Shown here: in pieces, positions 23,459 to 60,431 of the stretch
Position numbering within the stretch: the first letter of the stretch is position 1
How the letters are laid out: each line of letters opens with the position of its first letter
Source of the DNA: Gilliamella bombi
Lineage (GTDB): Bacteria; Pseudomonadota; Gammaproteobacteria; Enterobacterales; Orbaceae
NCBI RefSeq assembly: GCF_900103255.1
Contig: NZ_FMWS01000001.1
Coordinates: 1-64,000 of the forward strand
DNA: 64,000 nt
Direction of reading: 5' to 3'
Position numbers and translations under genes: made by a program
The notes under the pieces: model-generated
Told to the model about the DNA's origin: nothing
Database searches by the model: none
Seen by the model: the letters and a program-made list of their open reading frames with translations, nothing else

Positions 23459-24790
23459 ATGTCTAATCGGAAATATTTTGGTACAGATGGGATTCGCGGT
23501 AAAGTTGGCCAGTATCCTATTACACCAGATTTTGCGCTTAAATTAGGCTGGGCTGCTGGGCGAGTGCTAGCCAAAGATGGCGTTAAAAAAGTATTAATCG
23601 GTAAAGATACCCGCATTTCAGGCTACATGCTTGAATCAGCACTAGAGGCGGGATTTGCTTCTGCTGGTGTTGCCGCTGCGTTTACAGGACCAATGCCAAC
23701 CCCGGCCATTGCCTATTTAACCCGCACTTTTCGTGCTGATGCTGGCGTTGTCATTTCTGCCTCGCACAATCCTTTTTATGATAATGGTATTAAATTCTTT
23801 TCAACCGAAGGGAAAAAACTTGATGATACAATCGAATTGGAAATTGAAGCCGAGCTTGAAAAAGAGATCGATTGCGTTGAATCCAAACAACTCGGGCGAG
23901 CTAGCCGTATTACCGACGCTGCAGGGCGTTATATTGAATTTTGTAAAAGCACATTTGACCATGATTTAAGTTTGTCTGGATTAAAAATTGTTGTTGATTG
24001 CGCTAATGGTGCCACCTATCACATAGCACCAAAAGTATTACGAGAACTAGGAGCACAAGTAATAAAAATTGGTTGTGAGCCAGATGGTGTTAACATCAAT
24101 GAAAACTGTGGCGCAACTGACATAAAAGCGCTTGCTAAACGAGTTATTGATGAAAAAGCCAATTTAGGTTTTGCCTTAGATGGCGATGGTGACCGCATAA
24201 TCATGGTTGATCATAAAGGTCGAAAAATTGATGGTGATTTAATTATCTATATCATTGCCCGTGAAGCATTAAGACAAGGTCAACTAAAAGGCGGCGTTGT
24301 CGGCACATTAATGAGCAATATGGGGCTTGAAATTGCACTTAAAAATCTCGGTATCCCATTTGCTCGTGCTAAAGTTGGTGATCGTTATGTACTTGAAAAA
24401 CTAATCGAAAAAAAATGGCGCTTAGGTGCCGAAAATTCGGGACATGTTTTATTGTTAGATAAAACCACCACTGGTGATGGTATTATTGCAGGTTTACAAG
24501 TATTAGCCGCAATGATTCGTAATGATATGTCATTAGCTGACTTGTGCAGTGGTATGACAATGTTACCACAAGTATTAATTAATGTTCGGTTTTCAGGTGA
24601 AAACGACCCCTTAAATAGTGATGAAGTAAAAGCGGCAATTAAACATGCAGAAAAACAGCTTGGTCATAATGGTCGAGTTTTGATCCGTAAATCAGGAACC
24701 GAACCGCTAATTCGTGTTATGGTAGAAGGAAGCAATGAAAACGAAGTGCAAAAGTTGGCAGAAACTATCGCTACAGCAGTTAAAGCCTAA
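23459..24790 (+). CDS. glmM: phosphoglucosamine mutase GlmM
   Basis: The 443-aa protein converts glucosamine-6-phosphate to glucosamine-1-phosphate for peptidoglycan and LPS precursors. Motifs: [20 protein letters not shown] at the start, the phosphoserine loop [19 protein letters not shown] near residue 100, the metal-binding loop [13 protein letters not shown] near 240, GAENSGHVL near 325, and the phosphate-binding ending [22 protein letters not shown] ribosome site precedes ATG 23459. Gene order here (tyrA-glmM-atp) differs from E. coli, where glmM follows folP. Confidence 0.96.
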
Positions 24791-50440: not shown

Positions 50441-51394
50441 ATGGATATGATTCATTCTTCTGATCTAAAAACGATCATGCATTCCAAGCGTGCCAATATT
50501 TATTATTTAGAGCATTGCCGTGTTTTGGTTAATGGCGGGCGAGTTGAGTATGTTACTGAGCAAGGTCAACAATCGTTATATTGGAATATTCCAATAGCTA
50601 ATACTACCTGTATTTTATTAGGCACGGGAACATCATTAACGCAAGCGGCAGTGCGAGAGCTTTCACGGGCAGGTGTCATGATTGGCTTTTGTGGTGGAGG
50701 CGGAACGCCTCTATTTTCATCAACCGAATCTGAATTCGCTTGTCAATTTTTTTCGCCACAAAGTGAATATCGCTCGACAGAATATCTACAAAGCTGGTGT
50801 CAATTTTGGTTTGATGATGAACGTCGATTACAAGCAGCTAAATTATTGCAACAAACACGGCTTAATATTATTAGTGAGTGTTGGCCGCAATTTGATTGGG
50901 ATATTGATAAAACGCAGTTAGCGCATATTCTTACTGATGCAACACAACAATTTACCGATGTTGATAATAGCCAAGCACTTTTAGCCGCAGAAGGGCGAAT
51001 TAGCAAACGTCTTTATAGCATGGCAAATCAATTAACCTTACAAGATGACAAATTTAAACGGGAACAAGGCACACGAGGCAAGAGTCATGATCCCGCTAAT
51101 CAATTTTTAGACCATGGTAACTATTTAGCTTATGGACTCGGCGCAACGGCTTGTTGGGTGTTAGGTCTCCCTCATGGACTTGCTATTTTACACGGAAAAA
51201 CTCGCCGGGGTGGATTAGTTTTTGATGCGGCAGATATTATTAAAGATGGCATTGTATTACCTCAGGCCTTTTTATCAGCCAAACAAGGCGATAGTGAAAA
51301 AGAATTTCGTATGGCATGTATTGCGCAATTTGCTCAATTAGGTGCACTTGATAGGATTATTGATACTTTAAAACAGATAGCAGATCAAATATGA
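50441..51394 (+). CDS. cas1: type I-F CRISPR integrase Cas1
   Basis: The 317-aa protein is Cas1 of the I-F type. The N-terminal beta domain includes RANIYYLEHCRVLVNGGRVE and LLGTGTSLTQAAVRELSRAG. The catalytic residues appear in AAEGRISKRLYSMANQ (Glu), LPHGLAILHGKTRRGGLVFD (His) and the nearby DAADIIKDG (Asp). It works with the Cas2 part of the next protein to insert spacers. The start of cas3 overlaps its end by 4 nt (ATGA). There are 165 nt between carB and cas1, with no CRISPR repeats visible there. Confidence 0.96.
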   Translation: MDMIHSSDLKTIMHSKRANIYYLEHCRVLVNGGRVEYVTEQGQQSLYWNIPIANTTCILLGTGTSLTQAAVRELSRAGVMIGFCGGGGTPLFSSTESEFACQFFSPQSEYRSTEYLQSWCQFWFDDERRLQAAKLLQQTRLNIISECWPQFDWDIDKTQLAHILTDATQQFTDVDNSQALLAAEGRISKRLYSMANQLTLQDDKFKREQGTRGKSHDPANQFLDHGNYLAYGLGATACWVLGLPHGLAILHGKTRRGGLVFDAADIIKDGIVLPQAFLSAKQGDSEKEFRMACIAQFAQLGALDRIIDTLKQIADQI

Positions 51395-54300
51395 ATATTT
51401 TACTTGTTAGTCAATGCAAAAAAAATGCCTTAACCGAAACAAGGCGGATTATCGATCAGTTCGCTGAGCGCTGCGGTGAACGAACATGGCAAAGCCCAAT
51501 GACCGAAGCAGGGTTACAAACGCTCTATAAATTATTACGCAAAACTGCACGAAAAAATACTGCTGTTGCATGTTATTGGACACATGGTAAAAATTTAACT
51601 GATCTTTTGTGGATTGTGGGCGATCGCAGTCAGTTTAATCAAGAGGGACGAGTCCCAACTAATCGTACTAAACGTAATATTTTACGCAGTGACAGCGAAA
51701 ATTGTTGGCAATATGCAACCACCATTCAATTAATTACAACCATAGCGGCACTACTTCATGATTTAGGTAAAGCAACGATTGGTTTTCAATCTAAATTACG
51801 AGCAGAAACGGCTGTGGCGGCTGATCCTTACCGACATGAGTGGATTTCGTTACAATTATTTTTATTAATGATTCAAGGCTGCACCACGAACGAAGCCTTA
51901 TTTGATCGATTAGCGCATTTTGATCAATATCGACAACAGAATCCTAATTGGTACCAGCAACTAACCAAAGTCGACAAAAATGATCTCACGCAGTTACCGT
52001 TATTGGCACAATGGATTGCGTGGCTCATTGTGTCGCATCATCGAATGCCGTTTTTACCGGATTCATTAACGGGGGATATTAAAAATTTACAGAAAATAGA
52101 TTTTGATATATCTGGTTTAACTATCCGAAGTTTTTATAAAACATTTAAGGCAATTGATAAATGGGTTAAAAATAGTCATAGTCAACACGCTTCACCCAAC
52201 GATTTTTGGCTGCTTAAAAGCGATATAACCTTAAGTCAGCCTTGGCTGAAAAAACTAAGCCGTTATGCAGCCAAAGCCCTAAATCATGTGCCTTTAATGC
52301 AATTGTCTAATATTGACGAGTTTTTATTGCATATTTCACGTTTAAGCTTAATGGTGGCTGATCATAACTACTCAAGTTTATCTTTAGCATGTGAAGAGGC
52401 AAAAGAAAATGAAGCAATATTGATTGCTAACACGAATTACCTAAAAAAAGCGAAGCAACGTTTAGATGATCATTTAATCGGTGTTGCTAATTTTTCAGCC
52501 CGTTTTGCTCGTTTATTACCTAAAATAACCACGGAATTACCCGCAATCAATCAACATAAACCTTTTACCAAACGAACAACTATAAAACGATTCCAGTGGC
52601 AAAATCATGCTTTTGATTTAGCAAAAAGTTATCAACAACTATCTGATGAATGTGGCTTTTTTGGTGTTAATATGGCATCGACTGGCTGTGGTAAAACCTT
52701 AGCCAATGGGCGGATTATGTTTGCGCTTTCAAATCCAAAACGGGGCGTGCGTTTTACCATTGCATTGGGATTACGTGTTTTAACGTTGCAAACAGGTAAA
52801 GCATTAAGAGAAAGATTACACTTAAGTGATGAACATCTGGCGATTTTAGTGGGTGGGCGAGCCACAAAAACCTTGTTTGAACTGAGTAGTGAAGACATTG
52901 AACAAAACGATTCTCCAACAAATTCAGAAAACCAAGGTAGTGAATCTATCGAATCGTTACTTGATGAATATATTGATGTAGCAGAAAGTGGTATTGCTGA
53001 TTGTGAATTAGGTACTATTATTGAAGACAGTAAAGCACGGCAATTACTTTATGCACCTATTGTGACATGTACAATTGACCATATTATTCAAGCTAGCGAA
53101 TGTACCCGAGGCGGTAAATATATTGCACCCACGTTAAGATTGTTAACCTCAGATTTGATTTTAGATGAGCCGGATGATTTTGATCAACATGACTTACCTG
53201 CACTGGCTCGCTTGGTGCATTTAGCTGGGTTATTTGGTAGCAAAGTGCTACTCTCATCAGCAACCTTAACGCCAGATTTAATTGCCGGATTATTTGATGC
53301 TTACCAAGCAGGACGAAAAATTTGGAATCAAAATAACCAATATGCCGATAATACCATTGTATGTGGTTGGTTTGATGAATATGAACAGTCGATATCACAA
53401 ATTGCTGATACTAAAACGTTTCGAGATCACCATCAACAATTTGTAGCAATGCGCATTCATCAATTAGCACAAAGCGCAATCCGCCGTAAAGGGCATATTT
53501 TAGATCTACTAAATTACCAAGAAAATAAAACAGAAAACCAAAAAATAAATTATGGTGTGCTAGCTAAACAATTATTGGATCAAGCTTATCAATTTCACCA
53601 AGATCATCATCAAATTGATAAAAAATCACAAAAAAAGGTAAGTATCGGTTTAATGCGTTTTGCCCATACAGAAGATGTTATTTCACTTACAGAACAAATT
53701 TACGCACAAAAGAAGTTACCTAGTGATACTGCTTTTCATATCGTGGTTTATCATGCTCGACAACTGCTGTTATTGCGTAGCCAATTAGAAGAAAAACTTG
53801 ATAGAATTTTAAATCGCAGTGATGAACAGGCTCTATTTAGCCAACCCGAAATTCTCCAATCTATAAAAGGTAGCAAGAAAGAAAATCATATCTTTATTGT
53901 GATTGGCACACCTGTCACCGAAGTCGGGCGCGATCACGATTATGATTGGGCGATTGTCGAACCATCATCCATGCGCTCTATTATTCAGTTAGTAGGGCGA
54001 GTATGGCGTCACCGACCACAAAAAATTGCACAAAAGGCCAATGTGGCCATATTAGGCTCGAATTTAAAAGCAATTGAATCTAAGTATCGTACGGATAAAG
54101 CCTGTTTTACTAAACCAGGATTTGAAGAAAAACCATTATTTTTGCTGAAAACCCATAAAACAAATGAATTAATTCCTGCTCATCAGTTAGTGAATATAGA
54201 TGCGGTTCCTCGTATTAAGTCTTGCCCTGAAGATGGGCTAACGCTAGCTGAATTAGAACATAAGGTCATGGCAGATCTCTTTGCGATTAATGCCCGTAAA

Positions 54301-54714
54301 AGTAATTATGTCACCAGCTATTGGCAACAAGGCTTAGCCCATCACCATTGTGTGCATTTACAGGCGATTTCGCCATTTAGAGAGAATGATAAGACACAAG
54401 ATGAATATATTTGCCAACTTGACGACGATGGCGATTATCAATTTAGCTATGCAGATGTAGCATGGCAGACTCCAGATGAATCTTGTCCAAGCAAACAAAA
54501 TAGCCAAATTGAATACAAACGTTGGTTATTTGAAAATCCGCAAGTTAAACCGTGGTTAGAAAATAGTGTCGAGCAAGCCATAGCAAAAATAACCGAATAT
54601 TTCCCAAATAAAACGCCATATCGATTAGCGAATGAATTTTGTAGCGTAAGCTTATATCGTAATAGCAGTTGGTATTTTCATCCTTATTTAGGATTTTATG
54701 AAAAGAAAGGATAA
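51391..54714 (+). CDS. cas3: type I-F Cas2-Cas3 fusion nuclease-helicase
   Basis: The 1107-aa protein fuses Cas2 (residues 1-95, MNILLVSQCKKNALTETRRI) to Cas3, the hallmark of type I-F. The HD nuclease site is LLHDLGKATIGF near residue 120 and HH in IVSHHRMPFLPD near 215. The SF2 helicase has Walker A ASTGCGKTLANGR near 428, DEPDDFD (Walker B) near 590, SSATLTPDLI near 625 and motif VI LVGRVWRHRP near 867. It serves both spacer capture and target degradation. It ends 12 nt before a 42-bp element and a 761-nt non-coding region. Confidence 0.96.
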   Translation: MNILLVSQCKKNALTETRRIIDQFAERCGERTWQSPMTEAGLQTLYKLLRKTARKNTAVACYWTHGKNLTDLLWIVGDRSQFNQEGRVPTNRTKRNILRSDSENCWQYATTIQLITTIAALLHDLGKATIGFQSKLRAETAVAADPYRHEWISLQLFLLMIQGCTTNEALFDRLAHFDQYRQQNPNWYQQLTKVDKNDLTQLPLLAQWIAWLIVSHHRMPFLPDSLTGDIKNLQKIDFDISGLTIRSFYKTFKAIDKWVKNSHSQHASPNDFWLLKSDITLSQPWLKKLSRYAAKALNHVPLMQLSNIDEFLLHISRLSLMVADHNYSSLSLACEEAKENEAILIANTNYLKKAKQRLDDHLIGVANFSARFARLLPKITTELPAINQHKPFTKRTTIKRFQWQNHAFDLAKSYQQLSDECGFFGVNMASTGCGKTLANGRIMFALSNPKRGVRFTIALGLRVLTLQTGKALRERLHLSDEHLAILVGGRATKTLFELSSEDIEQNDSPTNSENQGSESIESLLDEYIDVAESGIADCELGTIIEDSKARQLLYAPIVTCTIDHIIQASECTRGGKYIAPTLRLLTSDLILDEPDDFDQHDLPALARLVHLAGLFGSKVLLSSATLTPDLIAGLFDAYQAGRKIWNQNNQYADNTIVCGWFDEYEQSISQIADTKTFRDHHQQFVAMRIHQLAQSAIRRKGHILDLLNYQENKTENQKINYGVLAKQLLDQAYQFHQDHHQIDKKSQKKVSIGLMRFAHTEDVISLTEQIYAQKKLPSDTAFHIVVYHARQLLLLRSQLEEKLDRILNRSDEQALFSQPEILQSIKGSKKENHIFIVIGTPVTEVGRDHDYDWAIVEPSSMRSIIQLVGRVWRHRPQKIAQKANVAILGSNLKAIESKYRTDKACFTKPGFEEKPLFLLKTHKTNELIPAHQLVNIDAVPRIKSCPEDGLTLAELEHKVMADLFAINARKSNYVTSYWQQGLAHHHCVHLQAISPFRENDKTQDEYICQLDDDGDYQFSYADVAWQTPDESCPSKQNSQIEYKRWLFENPQVKPWLENSVEQAIAKITEYFPNKTPYRLANEFCSVSLYRNSSWYFHPYLGFYEKKG

Positions 54715-54767: not shown

Positions 54768-54824
54768 ATATCGTCAGGTGAATAATGGTTGCTAGTAAAA
54801 GGTAGGGAATTCTTTTATACTTGA

Positions 54825-54918
54825 TGACACTGCTGTATAAGCAGTTTAGAAATATTAAATTCTTTTCAAATATTGATTTATACATTCTACATTCACCGCC
54901 GAATAGGCGGTTTTCATT
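54825..54918 (+). ncRNA. crRNA-like guide gene (pseudo-repeat, pseudo-spacer, pseudo-repeat)
   Basis: The first unit (54825-54852) is a degenerate I-F repeat. It keeps the handle TTTAGAAA and a 5-bp stem CTGCT-GTATA-AGCAG, in which a C-G pair has become T-A on both sides. The pseudo-spacer is 38 nt (54853-54890), 6 nt longer than those of the array. The second unit (54891-54918) keeps the hairpin CCGCC-GAATA-GGCGG and runs into TTTTC, so it may also terminate transcription. A TATACT at 54816 could be its -10. The pseudo-spacer begins with TATTAAATTCTTTT, which recurs exactly next to CC at 54959. This is the layout of crRNA-like regulators (CreA/CreR). Transcription is inferred. Confidence 0.72.
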
Positions 54919-54958
54919 CTTAGTTATTAATTTATGTTTTTTTAAATTTAATTAACCC

Positions 54959-54990
54959 TATTAAATTCTTTTAAAATTATAAATGTATTG
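54959..54990 (+). promoter_or_regulatory. putative Csy-complex target 1, CC PAM, overlapping a -35 box
   Basis: The 32-nt window is preceded by CCC (54956-54958), giving the 5'-CC PAM of type I-F. Its first 14 nt equal the first 14 nt of the pseudo-spacer at 54853; 21 of 32 positions match in all, with the mismatches at the PAM-distal end. It ends within the -35 box at 54988. Confidence 0.65.
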
Positions 54991-55065
54991 ATTTGGCTTT
55001 TTCATATAGATATATTACAAAAATGTAATTTTATTTTTTGTAACAGCGCATTACAAAATCGAAGT
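54988..55065 (+). promoter_or_regulatory. promoter with two palindromes, copy 1
   Basis: TTGATT (54988) and TATATT (55011) are separated by 17 nt. The inverted repeat ATTACA-N4-TGTAAT (55014-55029) overlaps the -10. A second site, centred 36 bp downstream (55050-55065), keeps ATTACA but has an eroded right arm (CGAAGT). No gene follows this copy, so it is probably a relic. Confidence 0.6.
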
Positions 55066-55159: not shown

Positions 55160-55225
55160 TTATGATTTTGTATAAGCAGTTTAGAAATATTAAATTATTT
55201 TTGAACACTAATTTATATAATTCAC
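55160..55225 (+). pseudogene. eroded second crRNA-like unit
   Basis: The last 18 nt of the pseudo-repeat (55170-55187, GTATAAGCAGTTTAGAAA) are identical to copy 1, but the left arm of the stem has become TTTT, so the hairpin is lost. A 38-nt pseudo-spacer-like stretch follows, again starting TATTAAATT. The downstream hairpin of copy 1 is replaced by AT-rich sequence. Confidence 0.6.
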
Positions 55226-55288
55226 CTTATAATATATATTCTATTATTAATCAATAAATTATTTATGTTTTGTTGGTTTTACTACCCC

Positions 55289-55320
55289 TATTATAATCTA
55301 TTCAAAATTAAATTTGTTGA
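55289..55320 (+). promoter_or_regulatory. putative Csy-complex target 2, CC PAM, overlapping the active -35 box
   Basis: The window is preceded by CCCC (55285-55288) and its last bases are the TTGA of the -35 box. It matches the copy 1 pseudo-spacer (54853-54884) at 22 of 32 positions, with mismatches at positions 6, 8, 12, 19, 20, 22, 23, 28, 30 and 31. Positions 6, 12 and 30 are ones that are flipped out in type I complexes. The copy 2 pseudo-spacer matches less well (19 of 32). Confidence 0.6.
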
Positions 55321-55394
55321 CTTGTCTTTTTTATATAGTTATATTACATAAATGTAATGTTAAGTTACATAACAACGTACTACAAAATTGTAGT
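55317..55394 (+). promoter_or_regulatory. promoter with paired palindromic operators upstream of the 104-aa gene
   Basis: TTGACT (55317-55322) and TATATT (55340-55345) with a 17-nt spacer form a near-consensus sigma-70 promoter. ATTACA-TAAA-TGTAAT (55343-55358) overlaps the -10, and ACTACA-AAAT-TGTAGT (55379-55394) lies 36 bp further on. Both fit AyTACA-N4-TGTArT, so a dimeric repressor could bind both. The start of transcription would be near 55352. Confidence 0.7.
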
Positions 55395-55407: not shown

Positions 55408-55437
55408 AAACCCCAGATGTTCCAGCATCTGAGGTTT
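55408..55437 (+). promoter_or_regulatory. conserved hairpin in the leader of the 104-aa gene
   Basis: AAACC and CAGATG pair with CATCTG and GGTTT around a C/A mismatch, with loop TTCCAG. Copy 1 has a smaller version (TTCAGAT / ATCTGAA, 55083-55104). The outer bases differ between the copies on both sides, so pairing is kept. It could be an attenuator or a stability element. Confidence 0.6.
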
Positions 55438-55475: not shown

Positions 55476-55790
55476 ATGTCTAAGAATAAATTTTTAAAAA
55501 TTCAATGTCAAATTTTAATTGAAAATATTAAGTTAAAAAAATTCGATATTAATACTTCAGCAGCTAATGATGAAGTAAATATCGAATTTTCTCATCAAAT
55601 TAATGATTATTCAATTCGAGATCTAATGAAAATTCTAAATATTTCGACGATTAAAGAAGTCAAATATTTAATTAAAAATTTAGAACTAGAACAATCTAAG
55701 TATCGCTCTTTAAATTCTCATAAAAAATGGGTTTATAACAACAATGCATTAAATATATTGAAGTTATATTTAAAATATAAAGCAGCATAG
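55476..55790 (+). CDS. unknown 104-aa Lys-rich protein, possible helix-turn-helix, within the cas locus
   Basis: I do not recognise this protein. It starts MSKNKFLKIQCQILIENIKL and is basic (many Lys) with few acidic residues. Residues about 45-70 (YSIRDLMKILNIS, then EVKYLIKNLEL) look like a helix-turn-helix, and the end (WVYNNNALNILKLYLKY) could be a wing and helix. That would fit an autoregulator of the two palindromes upstream, but a small toxin guarded by the crRNA-like RNA is an alternative. It has its own promoter and a hairpin terminator (55800-55831) before csy1. AGGAAGA lies 8-14 nt before the ATG. It is not a known core I-F cas gene. Confidence 0.72.
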   Translation: MSKNKFLKIQCQILIENIKLKKFDINTSAANDEVNIEFSHQINDYSIRDLMKILNISTIKEVKYLIKNLELEQSKYRSLNSHKKWVYNNNALNILKLYLKYKAA

Positions 55791-55799
55791 CATTAAATC

Positions 55800-55838
55800 A
55801 AAAGGTTTATAGATGATGATATAAGCCTTTTTGATTTT
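55800..55838 (+). terminator. terminator or attenuator between the 104-aa gene and csy1
   Basis: A 12-bp stem (AAAAGGTTTATA / TATAAGCCTTTT, one G-T pair) with loop GATGATGA is followed by TGATTTTG. Only about 28 nt separate it from the csy1 start, too little for another promoter plus the ribosome site. csy1 expression may therefore depend on read-through. Confidence 0.7.
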
Positions 55839-55865: not shown

Positions 55866-57242
55866 ATGAATAACATATCTTGGCAAGATATAAGAAAAGT
55901 AATTTTAGATTTTCTGCAACAACGGCTTGCCAATAATAGTAATTATAAAAGTGAAACCGCTAAGCTAGAAAAAGCAAAAGAGTTAGGCGATCAGGTCGCA
56001 GTTAATGAAGCTCAGCAAAAGTTAGCTGAACTTGCTAAAAGGTTTGATTTTGAAACGTGGATGGAAGATGCGGCAACTAGAAGAATTTCGTGGATAACAA
56101 TAGGAACTCATTTAAGCAAAGGTATCCATTCATCTAGCTCTGGAGATAACGTTAACATTGCGACCCAATCTAAACTGAGCCATCAAACAGTTATATCTTC
56201 TGCAACACCATCCTTGTTAGAACTTGATAGCTCTGGTAATGCCGCTTCATTAGATATATTTTCTCTTTTTAATCAATATGTTGGTGAAAATAAAATTTTG
56301 CAGTTAATTATAGAAAATCATCCAGCTGTTTTACCTGCACTTTCCGATGATAAGCAAAAAGCATCACTCTATTTAACTAATTTTAAAAAAGCAATCTTTA
56401 ATGATTTCGATAACCCCAAAGCCTCGGAATTGAATAAGCAATTATATTGGCCGAATGATGAAGAACCGTATTTGTCAAAGCAAGATAATAATTATCGATT
56501 GTTAATTCCATTACATCCTAGCTCATTGTGTAATTACTTATACGAGAAGGTGCAAACACGATTTTCAGAAGAAAATAAATATGCACGAGAATTACGTAAA
56601 AAAAAGGATGTTGAGCATCAACCTTATTTTTCTTTCCATGACTTAGCCGTAGTTAAACTGGGAGGAAGTAATCCTCAAGGTGTCAGTCAATTAACTAGTA
56701 GTCAGGGAGGACGTAATTTTTTATTACCCTCTATGCCTCCTATATTTCAAAAATCTCAATTCCCATCGATTTCTAAACAACAAGAAACAATTTTCAATAA
56801 TGCACTGCAATATTTTTGTCGATTTGGTTTTAAATTACTGTTTGATATGGTTGAAGCGCCAAAAAATATTGTAGAAGAACGAGATGATCGTAAAGATGCG
56901 TTTGCGGTGATTTTATCTTTACTACTTAAGTTTGCTCGCTATATTCAAACTACTCAACCAGCTGGTTGGAGTCGTGATTATTCACTCAATTTTGATGAAA
57001 AACTTTGGCTTGATCCACAGCGAGTCCAATTAGAGAATGAAGAGGATTTTAAAAAGCAGTATGAACAAGGTGATTGGCAACAAAGTCTAGAAAAGCTTTT
57101 TGCAACTTGGGTTCAAAATGCTTTAAAAGAAAAATTTAAAAATTTTAAACAGCAATTTGCTGATCCTGAATTTAGCGAATGGCGCCGTGAATTTAATGCA
57201 GCGGTAAAAGCAAGTCAACGTAAAAGGGAGGGGATCTTTTAA
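55866..57242 (+). CDS. csy1: type I-F Csy complex large subunit Csy1 (Cas8f)
   Basis: The 458-aa protein is Csy1, which with Csy2 forms the tail of the surveillance complex and reads the CC PAM. It begins with helical DIRKVILDFLQQRLANNSNY and contains LYWPNDEEPYLSKQDNNYRL, SLCNYLYEKVQTRFSEENKY and the characteristic LGGSNPQGVSQLTSSQGGRN with FLLPSMPP. It is slightly longer than the Pseudomonas protein (434 aa). A strong AAGGAGGG ribosome site lies 5 nt before the ATG. csy2 starts in an overlap with its stop (TTTTAATG). Confidence 0.93.
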   Translation: MNNISWQDIRKVILDFLQQRLANNSNYKSETAKLEKAKELGDQVAVNEAQQKLAELAKRFDFETWMEDAATRRISWITIGTHLSKGIHSSSSGDNVNIATQSKLSHQTVISSATPSLLELDSSGNAASLDIFSLFNQYVGENKILQLIIENHPAVLPALSDDKQKASLYLTNFKKAIFNDFDNPKASELNKQLYWPNDEEPYLSKQDNNYRLLIPLHPSSLCNYLYEKVQTRFSEENKYARELRKKKDVEHQPYFSFHDLAVVKLGGSNPQGVSQLTSSQGGRNFLLPSMPPIFQKSQFPSISKQQETIFNNALQYFCRFGFKLLFDMVEAPKNIVEERDDRKDAFAVILSLLLKFARYIQTTQPAGWSRDYSLNFDEKLWLDPQRVQLENEEDFKKQYEQGDWQQSLEKLFATWVQNALKEKFKNFKQQFADPEFSEWRREFNAAVKASQRKREGIF

Positions 57243-58165
57243 TGGCATCATTACGTTATTATTTATTATTTGATCATGTCAAAGTTCATAATGCTAATGC
57301 AATTTCTAGCCCATTAACGTATGGCTTTCCGGCTATTTCGGGGTTTTTGGGTGCTATTCATGCTTTAAGTCGTAAAATTGAATCAGAAAATCCTATTTAC
57401 TTAGATGGTGTGTTAATTGCATGTCATGAATGTGATGTACAAGTTTATCGACCAAACAACTATGCCGATTATACGTTTCGATTAACACGCAATCCATTAG
57501 CTAAAAATGGTAGTACTCGTTCAATTATTGAAGAAGGGCGAGTTCATCTAGATGTTTCATTGCTTGTTGAGGTAAAAATTGAAGATCGTGAAACATTAGA
57601 TGATGCAGATGAACAGCAAGCATTTATCCAACAGATGAAACAAAAACTTTACCAGCAGCGTGTTGCTGGTGGGCAGGTTGTTGATATTGAATCAGTCGCA
57701 CTATATTCTGCATCAGAATCAAATAAAAACTTAATCAATGCACTATTACCCGCATTTGTTTTAGTTGAAGCACCACAAGATTTACAAGATATCACTACTG
57801 AATTACAGCAACAAGATCCTAATGCTACAGCGCTTGATGCCCTGATTGAAACAGCGATGTTGCATCATTATCCACAAGAAAAAGATCACTGGCAAACCAC
57901 ATCGGTTAAACAAGGTCGTGGTTGGCTTGTCCCTTTACATTTGGGCTATCAAGCTATTTCACCGTTATTTTCAGCAGGTAAGGTTGAACATGCGCGCAGT
58001 AATGAGCATGCCACACAATTTGTGGAGTGTATTTATGGGCTGGGTAAATGGGTCTTTCCTTTACGCTTGGAAGAGAATTTATCACAGGCTTTTTGGCGTT
58101 ATAAATGCAGTGAATTGCAATCTAATGATGCAGAAATTTATATTATCAATCAAGAAACTAATTAA
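57242..58165 (+). CDS. csy2: type I-F Csy complex subunit Csy2 (Cas5f)
   Basis: The 307-aa Cas5-type protein caps the 5' handle of the crRNA. Family marks are YYLLFDHVKVHNANAISSPL, TYGFPAISGFLGAIHALSRK near residue 30, RPNNYADYTFRLTRNPLAKN and, near the end, WLVPLHLGYQAISPLFSAGK followed by HATQFVECIYGLGKW. It overlaps csy1 by one base and precedes csy3 by 35 nt. Confidence 0.93.
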   Translation: MASLRYYLLFDHVKVHNANAISSPLTYGFPAISGFLGAIHALSRKIESENPIYLDGVLIACHECDVQVYRPNNYADYTFRLTRNPLAKNGSTRSIIEEGRVHLDVSLLVEVKIEDRETLDDADEQQAFIQQMKQKLYQQRVAGGQVVDIESVALYSASESNKNLINALLPAFVLVEAPQDLQDITTELQQQDPNATALDALIETAMLHHYPQEKDHWQTTSVKQGRGWLVPLHLGYQAISPLFSAGKVEHARSNEHATQFVECIYGLGKWVFPLRLEENLSQAFWRYKCSELQSNDAEIYIINQETN

Positions 58166-58200: not shown

Positions 58201-59211
58201 ATGAGTAAAGATAAAATGACAACGGCAAGCGTACTTGCTTTTGAACGTAGTTTTGATATTTCAGATGCAATTTTTGCACAGCAAAGTAGTACGGATACCA
58301 ATAAATTATCCCCTGTTGTAGTTACTGAAAAATCAGTTCGAGGCACTATTTCAAATCGTCTTAAAAATGCAGTGGCAAACGATCCAACCAAATTAGATGC
58401 TGAAATACAAAAACCAAATTTACAAACGGTAGATGTCGCTTCGTTAGATGCCGATAAAGATACTTTGGTAGTTACATGGAGCTGTAAAGTGTTGCCATTT
58501 TTAGGTAAACCATCAGTATGTAATGATATCGAATATCAAAAAGAACTAGAAAAAACAACGCAGGGTTATATTCAAACGCAAGGATTGACAGCACTAGCTA
58601 AGCGTTATGCTATTAATATCTTAAGTGGCCGTTGGTTATGGCGTAACCGTATGGCAGCAGAGCAAATTAGCCTTTCGATTACTCGAAAAGATGAAAAAAA
58701 ACCAATGATTGAAGTCAGTGATGTTAAACAATATCAACTAAACTCATTTGATTATGATGATAAATCGGTGAATGATCTTGCTACACTGATTGAAACAGGA
58801 TTATGTGGTAAAGAGTTTGTGATTTTTAACGTTGAAGCCAAATTGAAAATGGGCTTAGGTCAAGAAGTCTACCCGTCACAAGAATTAATTCTAGATACTG
58901 GCAAAACTAAAAGTAAAGTATTGTATGAGAAGAACAAACAAGCGGCCATGCATTCACAAAAAATCAGCAATGCAATTCGAACTATCGATACTTGGTATCA
59001 AGATAATGCACAATTTCCAATAGCGATAGAACCGTATGGCTCGGTGACATCAATGGGGCATGCTTTCCGACAACCAAAACAGAAATTAGACTTTTATACC
59101 TTATTTGATAATTGGGTATTAAAAGGTGAAAAACCATTGCTTGAGCAACAACATTATGTGATTGCGGTATTAATTCGTGGTGGTGTTTTTGGTGCTAGTG
59201 GCAAGGAGTAA
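58201..59211 (+). CDS. csy3: type I-F Csy complex backbone Csy3 (Cas7f)
   Basis: The 336-aa protein forms the six-copy backbone along the spacer. It starts with TASVLAFERSFDISDAIFAQ and has WSCKVLPFLGKPSVCND, AKRYAINILSGRWLWRNRMA, FVIFNVEAKLKMGLGQEVYP and HAFRQPKQKLDFYTLFDNWV, all characteristic of Csy3. AAGGAATA precedes the ATG. Length fits the family (342 aa in Pseudomonas). Confidence 0.95.
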   Translation: MSKDKMTTASVLAFERSFDISDAIFAQQSSTDTNKLSPVVVTEKSVRGTISNRLKNAVANDPTKLDAEIQKPNLQTVDVASLDADKDTLVVTWSCKVLPFLGKPSVCNDIEYQKELEKTTQGYIQTQGLTALAKRYAINILSGRWLWRNRMAAEQISLSITRKDEKKPMIEVSDVKQYQLNSFDYDDKSVNDLATLIETGLCGKEFVIFNVEAKLKMGLGQEVYPSQELILDTGKTKSKVLYEKNKQAAMHSQKISNAIRTIDTWYQDNAQFPIAIEPYGSVTSMGHAFRQPKQKLDFYTLFDNWVLKGEKPLLEQQHYVIAVLIRGGVFGASGKE

Positions 59212-59216
59212 ATTAT

Positions 59217-59786
59217 ATGCACTCACACTATTTAGAGCTGCGAGCTATTTCGCAAATTGAGATAACCGAGGTGGACGTGATTAATCAAGTCATGCAGTCA
59301 CTGCACCAAATCTTGGTTAATCAACAAGGAAATATCGCAATTAGTTTTCCTTGTTACAATGTACACCGAACATTAGGCGGAGTGATTCGCCTATTTGGTA
59401 CCGAGCAGGAATTGCAAAAACTTAAAGCAGATATACAGCAAAAATCATCGATAAGTGATTATGCTTTATTGATGCCTATCACAACAGTACCGGCAACGAT
59501 AAAAGGCTATTTGCATTTGAGCCGTGTTAATCCTAAAGGTCAGAGTGCGTTAAGACGTGCCGAAAAAAGATTAACTGCACAAGGTAAATGGACACCTGAA
59601 GTGAAAAATAAAATGGTTGAAAAGTGGGGAAGCGTTCATTTGCAATACCCACATCTTCATTTGAATAGTAAAAGTACAGGTCAAAGATTTATTTTGTGGT
59701 TAAAACAAGAAAAATGCCCAGAGCCAGTGCAAGGCACATTTAATAGCTATGGATTAAGCCAAACAGCCACTGTTCCTGATTTTTAA
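59217..59786 (+). CDS. csy4: type I-F crRNA endonuclease Csy4 (Cas6f)
   Basis: The 189-aa enzyme cuts repeat RNA at the base of its hairpin and stays bound as the head of the complex. The catalytic His is H30 (QSLHQIL), and the Ser/Phe region is near the C-terminus (LNSKSTGQRFILWL). The Arg-rich RNA-binding helix is RRAEKRLTAQGKW around residues 113-125. It lies 5 nt after csy3 and 137 nt before the array. It should process both the array and the crRNA-like unit at 54825. Confidence 0.94.
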   Translation: MHSHYLELRAISQIEITEVDVINQVMQSLHQILVNQQGNIAISFPCYNVHRTLGGVIRLFGTEQELQKLKADIQQKSSISDYALLMPITTVPATIKGYLHLSRVNPKGQSALRRAEKRLTAQGKWTPEVKNKMVEKWGSVHLQYPHLHLNSKSTGQRFILWLKQEKCPEPVQGTFNSYGLSQTATVPDF

Positions 59787-59923: not shown

Positions 59924-60431
59924 CTTCAATGCCGTATAGGCAGTTTAGAAAAGGCAAAGAATTTTTTGATTCAAATGATAAATCTTCAATGCCGTATAGG
60001 CAGTTTAGAAATACAAAAATCCCACAAACAGACCGCGGCCAGCCTTCAATGCCGTATAGGCAGTTTAGAAATTGAGCCACCACCCAATCATGAGCCTCAA
60101 CTACTTCAATGCCGTATAGGCAGTTTAGAAAGAAATAACTTTAAATCTCATACCGTGATGATGCTTCAATGCCGTATAGGCAGTTTAGAAAGAGCGGTGA
60201 AAAGTCTGTAAATAACTGTAATTCTTCAATGCCGTATAGGCAGTTTAGAAAAACCAGTTAAGCCATTTGCTCCCAGTTCATCTCTTCAATGCCGTATAGG
60301 CAGTTTAGAAACATTATTGCATTTAATCCCCTCTCTACAGAAGCTTCAATGCCGTATAGGCAGTTTAGAAAATGTAAAGTTAAACGTGCATCAATAGTAG
60401 ACACTTCAATGTCGAGTAGGTGGTCTTTTGT
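59924..60431 (+). CRISPR. type I-F CRISPR array, 8 intact repeats, 1 degenerate repeat, 8 spacers
   Basis: Eight identical 28-bp repeats start at 59924 and then every 60 nt to 60344, separated by 32-nt spacers. They begin CTTCAA, contain the stem TGCC-GTATA-GGCA and end GTTTAGAAA. The ninth repeat at 60404 is degenerate (GTCGAGTAGG, then diverged), marking the leader-distal end, so transcription runs left to right. Repeat position 6 is A, where the usual I-F repeat has C pairing with G20 at the cleavage site. Spacers show no obvious matches elsewhere in this window. Confidence 0.98.

Follow-up and report, generated by a model that had tools for sequence, protein, structure and literature searches.

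The type I-F CRISPR-Cas locus (clustered regularly interspaced short palindromic repeats and their associated genes) of Gilliamella bombi, a member of the Orbaceae, raises the question of what purpose is served by a degenerate mini-array that lies at 54825-54918 between cas2-3 and csy1. The locus was read in a window of 64,000 nucleotides (nt), which is the whole stretch of DNA analysed (NCBI RefSeq assembly GCF_900103255.1, contig NZ_FMWS01000001.1, positions 1 to 64,000 of the forward strand), and all features of the window given here are on its plus strand. An ordinary array has several near-identical repeats and regular 32-nt spacers, whereas this unit has two diverged repeats around a single pseudo-spacer. 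The original prediction was that the pseudo-spacer is a regulatory guide that binds a nearby promoter without cutting it. The comparison of relatives supports such guide binding; however, the prediction had missed a second target at 55289 and had not addressed which genes the promoter controls. With these included, the unit is probably a CreR-like guide through which the Csy complex represses the promoter of the operon that encodes it. All of the support for autorepression is comparative, being drawn from sequence, and the promoters are predicted ones.

Two sites in the gap pair with the guide. The first (target 1, 54957-54990) matches the guide at 18 of 20 positions and begins with the CC protospacer-adjacent motif (PAM) at 54957-54958. 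As had been claimed, the first 14 nt of the guide recur exactly at 54959 with CCC just 5′, 21 of 32 positions are identical overall, and the site ends in a −35-like box: its last three bases are the start of a TTGATT hexamer (54988) that lies 17 nt from TATATT. This first promoter-like element (TTGATT-17-TATATT, 54988-55016) came from a promoter scan and is similarly placed relative to the target in relatives. The second site (target 2, 55287-55320, CC PAM at 55287-55288) matches 15 of the first 18 guide positions, with mismatches at positions 6, 8, 12, 19 and 20 and then further ones. It sits on the −35 box of a tandem promoter copy (TTGACT-17-TATATT, 55317-55345, also from the scan), nearer to the downstream gene than target 1. 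The claim that the first match is not a coincidence held up well: CC plus the 14-nt seed occurred in 0 of 20,000 first-order Markov copies of the 585-nt region, the shuffle check that had been proposed, and none of 1000 dinucleotide shuffles gave a CC-flanked 20-nt match as good as the best one (18/20). Among the 4121 CC-flanked positions of the window, target 1 ranks first and 55289 second.

To place the unit among relatives, whose csy1 loci carry L-numbers, csy1 was followed through 44 genomes of the family and was present in 23 (21 of 35 of the genus, 0 of 1 other, and 2 of 8 others). In 19 of these 23, a mini-array, its guide and a candidate site were found; the four csy1 genomes outside this set are L015 (a 114-nt gap, unit absent), L018 (a complete array ahead of csy1), L044 (another gene context) and L017 (locus cut by the contig end). 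For 16 of the 18 units scored in register, no more than 14 of 1000 dinucleotide shuffles equalled the best CC-flanked match, and the nineteenth, L039, has a 16/20 match that 0 of 500 shuffles reached. Two CC-flanked sites are present in L005 and L019 as well, and L003 preserves both sites of the window. For the analysis of co-variation, 15 distinct units were used, with the near-duplicates L003, L004, L008 and L016 left out. Guides vary between species and targets vary along with them: guides scored 15.0 of 18 on average with their own targets versus 8.5 in crossed pairs, an own-pair score that is somewhat inflated because sites were chosen for their match to the own guide, and that comes from relatives which are not mutually independent. 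Such site picking yields little by chance (shuffle means of about 9 to 12 of 20), the observed own-pair sum was reached by 0 of 100,000 permutations, and the own target is the row maximum in 14 of 15 units (13 without ties). Pseudo-spacer and target thus change together; the original prediction had named independent drift as the outcome that would speak against it.

The mismatches are informative in themselves. In the parts of the literature at hand, every sixth base of a Csy guide contributes nothing to target pairing, which proceeds in steps of five (PMC6868142), and step-of-five pairing with a non-contributing sixth base is likewise described from a type I-F3 effector (PMC12774636). With one site counted per unit (55289 representing the window, and CT-flanked sites representing L007 and L013), guide positions 6, 12 and 18 were mismatched in 28 of 45 cases, compared with 19 of 225 elsewhere in positions 1-18 (p 2e-14), and the other five registers held 1 to 7 mismatches each. 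When sites were chosen automatically and had to be CC-flanked (14 units, with 54959 representing the window and L013 out), the counts were 24 of 42 and 22 of 210; choosing sites by total match favours no register. The 6/12/18 pattern is taken as a fingerprint of selection for Csy-guided binding. A whole-genome search was also performed with the PAM and the 15 readable positions among the guide's first 17, allowing at most two mismatches. This pattern occurred at five places, the guide itself among them, and a reversed control pattern at three; only 54957 and 55287 had a single mismatch. Because targets co-vary with guides and mismatches concentrate at positions that Csy does not read, chance is rejected as the source of the pairing.

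Similar units were sought beyond the genus, starting from 32 csy1-bearing genomes of gammaproteobacteria. A first scan covered 28 loci (excluding the window, L079, whose locus lies at a contig end, and two genomes for which no locus was fetched), and a follow-up covered 31 csy1 loci, three of them added, with a strict stem pattern that may overlook some units. In 11 of the 31 loci it yielded 36 guide candidates. Minus-strand mini-arrays with a CC-flanked match and a mismatch at position 6 plus 12 and/or 18 were found in L058, L061 and L070, from three other gammaproteobacterial genera, and 0, 0 and 6, respectively, of 500 dinucleotide shuffles did as well as the match. Given 6 of 500 shuffles and 36 tests, L070 is weak. 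In this unrelated gammaproteobacterium, some 65-90 nt separate the target from the likely ATG of csy1 downstream, and no open reading frame (ORF) of at least 20 codons begins between them on the plus strand. A further candidate, in L082, was set aside (5 of 200 mononucleotide shuffles, mismatch pattern absent). Such units seem, from these sequences, not to be confined to the Orbaceae.

The mini-array itself has the parts that a guide gene would need. The pseudo-spacer, or guide, of about 38 nt (54853-54890), of which approximately the first 18-20 nt are conserved as pairing, is flanked by psiR1 (54825-54852), a degenerate CRISPR repeat with a hairpin, and by the degenerate repeat psiR2 (54891-54918). 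Both match the Rfam family CRISPR-DR4 (psiR1 at 54828-54852 with 28.2 bits, E 0.0011; psiR2 with 24.7 bits, E 0.012), in each case below the gathering score of 35 bits. Directly 5′ of psiR1 is TATACT (54816-54821), a putative −10 box, and 18 of 19 units have TATACT or TATAAT just ahead of psiR1. The GC-rich hairpin and T-rich tail of psiR2 also score as terminator-like in a terminator scan (54895-54911), TTT follows immediately 3′ of the psiR2 hairpin in 12 of 19 units, and the distance from guide to hairpin ranges from 24 to 42 nt across the 19. The psiR1 stems were compared in a register fixed by us, with 6 pairs and a loop of 5, and paired changes were observed at pair 3 (TA/AT), pair 4 (GC/AT/GT) and pair 6 (CG/TA), with pair 1 unpaired in 7 of 19 units; the window and L003 have nearly identical gaps, yet both bases of pair 4 differ between them. 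Among nine fetched stretches of relatives, seven contain real arrays with repeated 28-mers, which end in TTTAGAAA, and in the other two no repeated 28-mers ending in AGAAA were found; the psiR1 sequences are diverged. L013 has a two-spacer mini-array of which one repeat reaches the Rfam CRISPR-DR4 cut-off, and it is perhaps an intermediate between an ordinary array and a guide gene. In L021 and L027 (G006), csy1 is matched in two overlapping pieces, and guide and target are still paired. The Csy1 closest to that of the window (91%) is that of L002, which has another guide family, and the nearly identical gap belongs to L003 (86%); because closeness of Csy1 and likeness of the gap disagree in this way, guide, target and promoter seem to be exchanged between genomes as a cassette.

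What the promoter would control was assessed from the layout of the locus. Upstream of the guide unit are cas1 (50441-51394, Pfam Cas_Cas1, E 1.1e-15) and the type I-F cas2-3 (51391-54714, Pfam Cas3_I-F_Cas2, E 5e-40, plus Cas3-like_C_2). Between cas2-3 and csy1 lie 1151 nt, in which a single ORF of at least 80 amino acids (aa) is present, at 55476-55790. Then follow csy1 (cas8f, 55866-57242, Pfam Cas_Csy1, E 1.4e-95), csy2 (cas5f, 57242-58165, Pfam E 9e-92), csy3 (cas7f, 58201-59211, Pfam E 2.2e-136), csy4 (cas6f, 59217-59786, Pfam E 1.7e-44) and an ordinary CRISPR array with 28-nt repeats (59924-60431), read from the sequence. On a reading of the sequence and of the relatives' loci, guide unit, targets, small ORF and csy1 are all co-directed. 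Downstream of the promoter there is the small gene plus csy1 or, in five relatives, csy1 alone: the small ORF follows the target in 14 of 19 units, and csy1 is next in L006, L008, L009, L016 and L020. In L020, the apparent last codons of the ORF remain, as judged by eye, and the guide-target mismatches in the first 20 positions are 6, 12 and 19; this lineage has probably lost the ORF but kept guide and target paired. Since guide and target are kept in five relatives that have no ORF, control of csy1 itself is favoured. Moreover, only 75 nt separate the stop codon of the ORF from csy1, and because this interval is largely filled by a hairpin there is little space in it for a further promoter.

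These observations are consistent with the following mechanism. The mini-array would be a CreR-like gene transcribed from its own promoter, Csy4 would cut the transcript at both degenerate repeats, and the resulting crRNA-like (CRISPR RNA-like) guide would then load into the Csy complex. Approximately 18-20 PAM-proximal positions would pair with the two CC-flanked targets, sufficient for binding but without the full R-loop that recruits Cas2-3. The bound Csy complex would occupy the −35 boxes of the two tandem promoters, and transcription to the small gene and to csy1-csy2-csy3-csy4 would be repressed; csy1 is assumed to be reached by read-through or attenuation past the hairpin at 55795. If the complex ran short, was taken up by an excess of ordinary crRNAs or was inhibited by an anti-CRISPR, this block would be relieved and more complex would be made. 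The protein of the small gene, a predicted winged helix described below, is probably a second regulator acting on the same promoter. Inverted repeats (ATTACA-N4-TGTAAT) overlie both −10 boxes, at 55014-55029 and 55343-55358, and we infer from their position that they are candidate operators. Similar repeats were seen by eye in L007, L013, L014 and L021, and GTGA-N5-TCAC stands at that place in L005 and L019. It is tentatively suggested, as a possibility short of an even chance, that the locus is a double-control circuit in which one guide with Csy acts on two tandem promoters and a winged-helix regulator (or toxin), encoded first in the operon, reads the same promoter, the two jointly setting cas expression. 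To our knowledge, such a circuit is known in no type I-F system.

Several observations weigh against autorepression, in addition to the inflated own-pair score and shared ancestry noted above. L015, L018 and L044 keep csy1 without the unit, and the unit is therefore dispensable. L007 and L013 fail the CC-flanked shuffle test (241 and 1000 of 1000). A second count for L007 likewise places its CC-flanked match no higher than chance (108 of 500), and its site with a CT flank is weak, being equalled by shuffles in 212 of 500 cases over 20 positions and in 19 of 500 when the 17 readable positions were scored; in L013, pairing is confined to a site flanked by CT (17/20, 0 of 500 with any flank). Promoter-like matches are no commoner in the sequence than in its shuffles (12 vs 11.9). 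Scored with a simple pattern and no control, 14 of 19 genomes have a −35-like hexamer that begins 16 to 32 nt from the start of the target, which speaks for autorepression; the pattern is absent from L006, L012, L016 and L039, lies at 50 nt in L009 and is weak in L008. Finally, the hairpin between ORF and csy1 (55795-55837, −15.1 kcal/mol, z −3.5) is terminator-like by eye, was not picked up by the terminator scan, and is present in all 13 of the 15 ORF-bearing loci that were folded, with a different sequence and a similar shape in L012 and L039; the ORF is perhaps a separate unit.

The main rival to autorepression is a CRISPR-regulated toxin, in which the guide represses either the 104-aa protein of the small ORF (CrePA-like) or an RNA from the leader hairpin (CreTA-like), so that a cell whose Csy is lost or inhibited would be harmed or killed. 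This was judged unlikely, although it is the strongest of the alternatives. AlphaFold2, run on 12 sequences, gives a confident model of about residues 42-104 only, a predicted MerR-like winged-helix C-terminal domain; this is a statement on fold, not function, although the fold suggests DNA binding. The MerR-like assignment is based on the top rows of Foldseek, on VIA-align and on secondary structure. RacA and pSK1 Par align with the highest Z, 8.0, and MerR regulators lower, with the tool warning that a Z below 8 may reflect merely a common arrangement; Foldseek gave no match at E ≤0.001. Sequence searches returned no family above the curated cut-off in Pfam (one match below it, AraA_central, E 0.044), none in NCBIfam, four weak matches to PHROGs from E 0.018 and three to solved structures (best E 0.067). 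The confident part of the protein is thus a winged helix, and neither Pfam nor NCBIfam gave a toxin or KilA-N family, which argues against a toxin. AbiEii, a name that we take to denote a toxin, is matched weakly in PADLOC (E 0.0018, residues 31-87), which leaves the toxin reading in play and counts against autorepression.

The distribution of the ORF counts in favour of a toxin. The ORF is found in 15 of 44 family genomes, all of them csy1-bearing, and in 1 of 369 genomes sampled from the class, namely the source genome (0 of 368 others). The relatives that share it are Gilliamella records and one record of Frischella japonica; Frischella also belongs to the Orbaceae, and these are bacteria of the bee gut. 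The winged-helix gene was found, in this analysis, only in Orbaceae. A phage or plasmid origin of the ORF was considered and rejected: searches of 50,697 records from phages and 72,556 from plasmids gave nothing at E 0.1. A leader hairpin stands 5′ of the ORF (55408-55437, −14.4 kcal/mol, z −5.1), in keeping with a regulated toxin as is the conserved hairpin 3′ of it; the leader hairpin was seen by eye in most ORF-bearing relatives, and its minus strand scores as a terminator. An RNA toxin or mini-ORF may be present, no systematic search having been aimed at this form. Against a toxin stand the five relatives that have guide and target without the ORF. In Acinetobacter, according to the portion of PMC10097628 that treats type I-F CreTA, that system occupies the same cas3-csy1 gap, a point in favour of the toxin; however, its guide gene diverges from the toxin, whereas here the two would be co-directed.

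Less probable by a good margin is the possibility that 54959 is a mere relic of a local duplication and that 55289 alone works as operator. The gap region is indeed duplicated in tandem, as direct repeats 329-335 nt apart demonstrate, and its second copy of the mini-array (55160-55220, identified from the direct repeats and by alignment) is decayed: the psiR1 stem is broken, psiR2 is gone, and no Rfam match was obtained, although the promoter-like box and target of this copy survive. Furthermore, 55289 has mismatches typical of relatives (6, 8, 12, 19) and is the site closest to the ORF. Yet 54959 has the better match, a PAM and a −35-like box, L003 preserves both sites, and L005 and L019 also have two. 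A chance match in AT-rich DNA, or a short duplication without guide function, is hardly credible: the region is very AT-rich and the first 17 nt of the guide also occur exactly within a coding gene (23786-23804, in ORF 23459-24790, which we presume from its sequence to resemble glmM; taken as chance), but the flank there is GG, not CC, and the shuffles, genome-wide rank, co-variation and six-step mismatch pattern rule out chance and local duplication as a full explanation.

Autorepression by a Csy-bound guide has published counterparts, of which only parts are drawn upon here. CreR is described as a crRNA-like RNA that is partly complementary to its own cas operon's promoter and causes autorepression (PMC12737573), and has been reported in types I-B, I-E and V-A (PMC13131331). 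Similar to CreR, degenerate repeats flank a guide near cas genes in G. bombi, and the guide pairs partially with a PAM-flanked site in a predicted promoter before cas genes; dissimilar from CreR, a small winged-helix gene usually lies between promoter and csy1, and type I-F is not named in the relevant passage of PMC13131331. The type I-F CreTA of Acinetobacter WCHA45, as presented in that portion of PMC10097628, has two degenerate repeats and a partial CC-flanked target with mismatches at 6, 11 and 18, and represses through the Csy complex; point changes in CreA at 2-5, 7-9 and 13-17 abolish function, and 6, 11 and 18 are unpaired. The present locus shares with it the cas3-csy1 gap, the two degenerate repeats, the partial guide, the CC-flanked target and the mismatches at 6 and 18. 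However, creA there is divergent from a 33-bp mini-ORF RNA toxin, and this creT/creA divergence is absent here, where guide, target, winged-helix gene and csy1 are co-directed and promoter and target are duplicated. The CreTA feature that is present is a crRNA-like guide with a target in a neighbouring promoter; an antitoxin role is putative. With CrePA, the locus would share CRISPR-guided repression of a protein gene, but CreP is typically a KilA-N protein acting on FtsZ in the description given by PMC12737573, whereas the protein here is a predicted MerR-like winged helix with no Pfam KilA-N match. The unit is accordingly rated as probably working like CreR or CreTA, for which published systems exist; distinctive are the co-directed arrangement, the type I-F setting, the duplicated target and the undescribed winged-helix gene. 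A literature search on Gilliamella, CRISPR and type I-F found no paper; these loci may be listed in Supplementary Data 2 of PMC10097628 or in the NAR (Nucleic Acids Research) 2023 survey, and their absence from print is not claimed.

Altogether, about 15 distinct guide-target pairs form a natural record of the guide positions on which the Csy complex depends in living cells. The small gene is present in some Gilliamella-type genomes and absent from others, and a few lack the unit entirely, so that autoregulation and toxin control can be tested directly against each other. If autorepression is true, CRISPR self-regulation would extend to type I-F in bee-gut symbionts.
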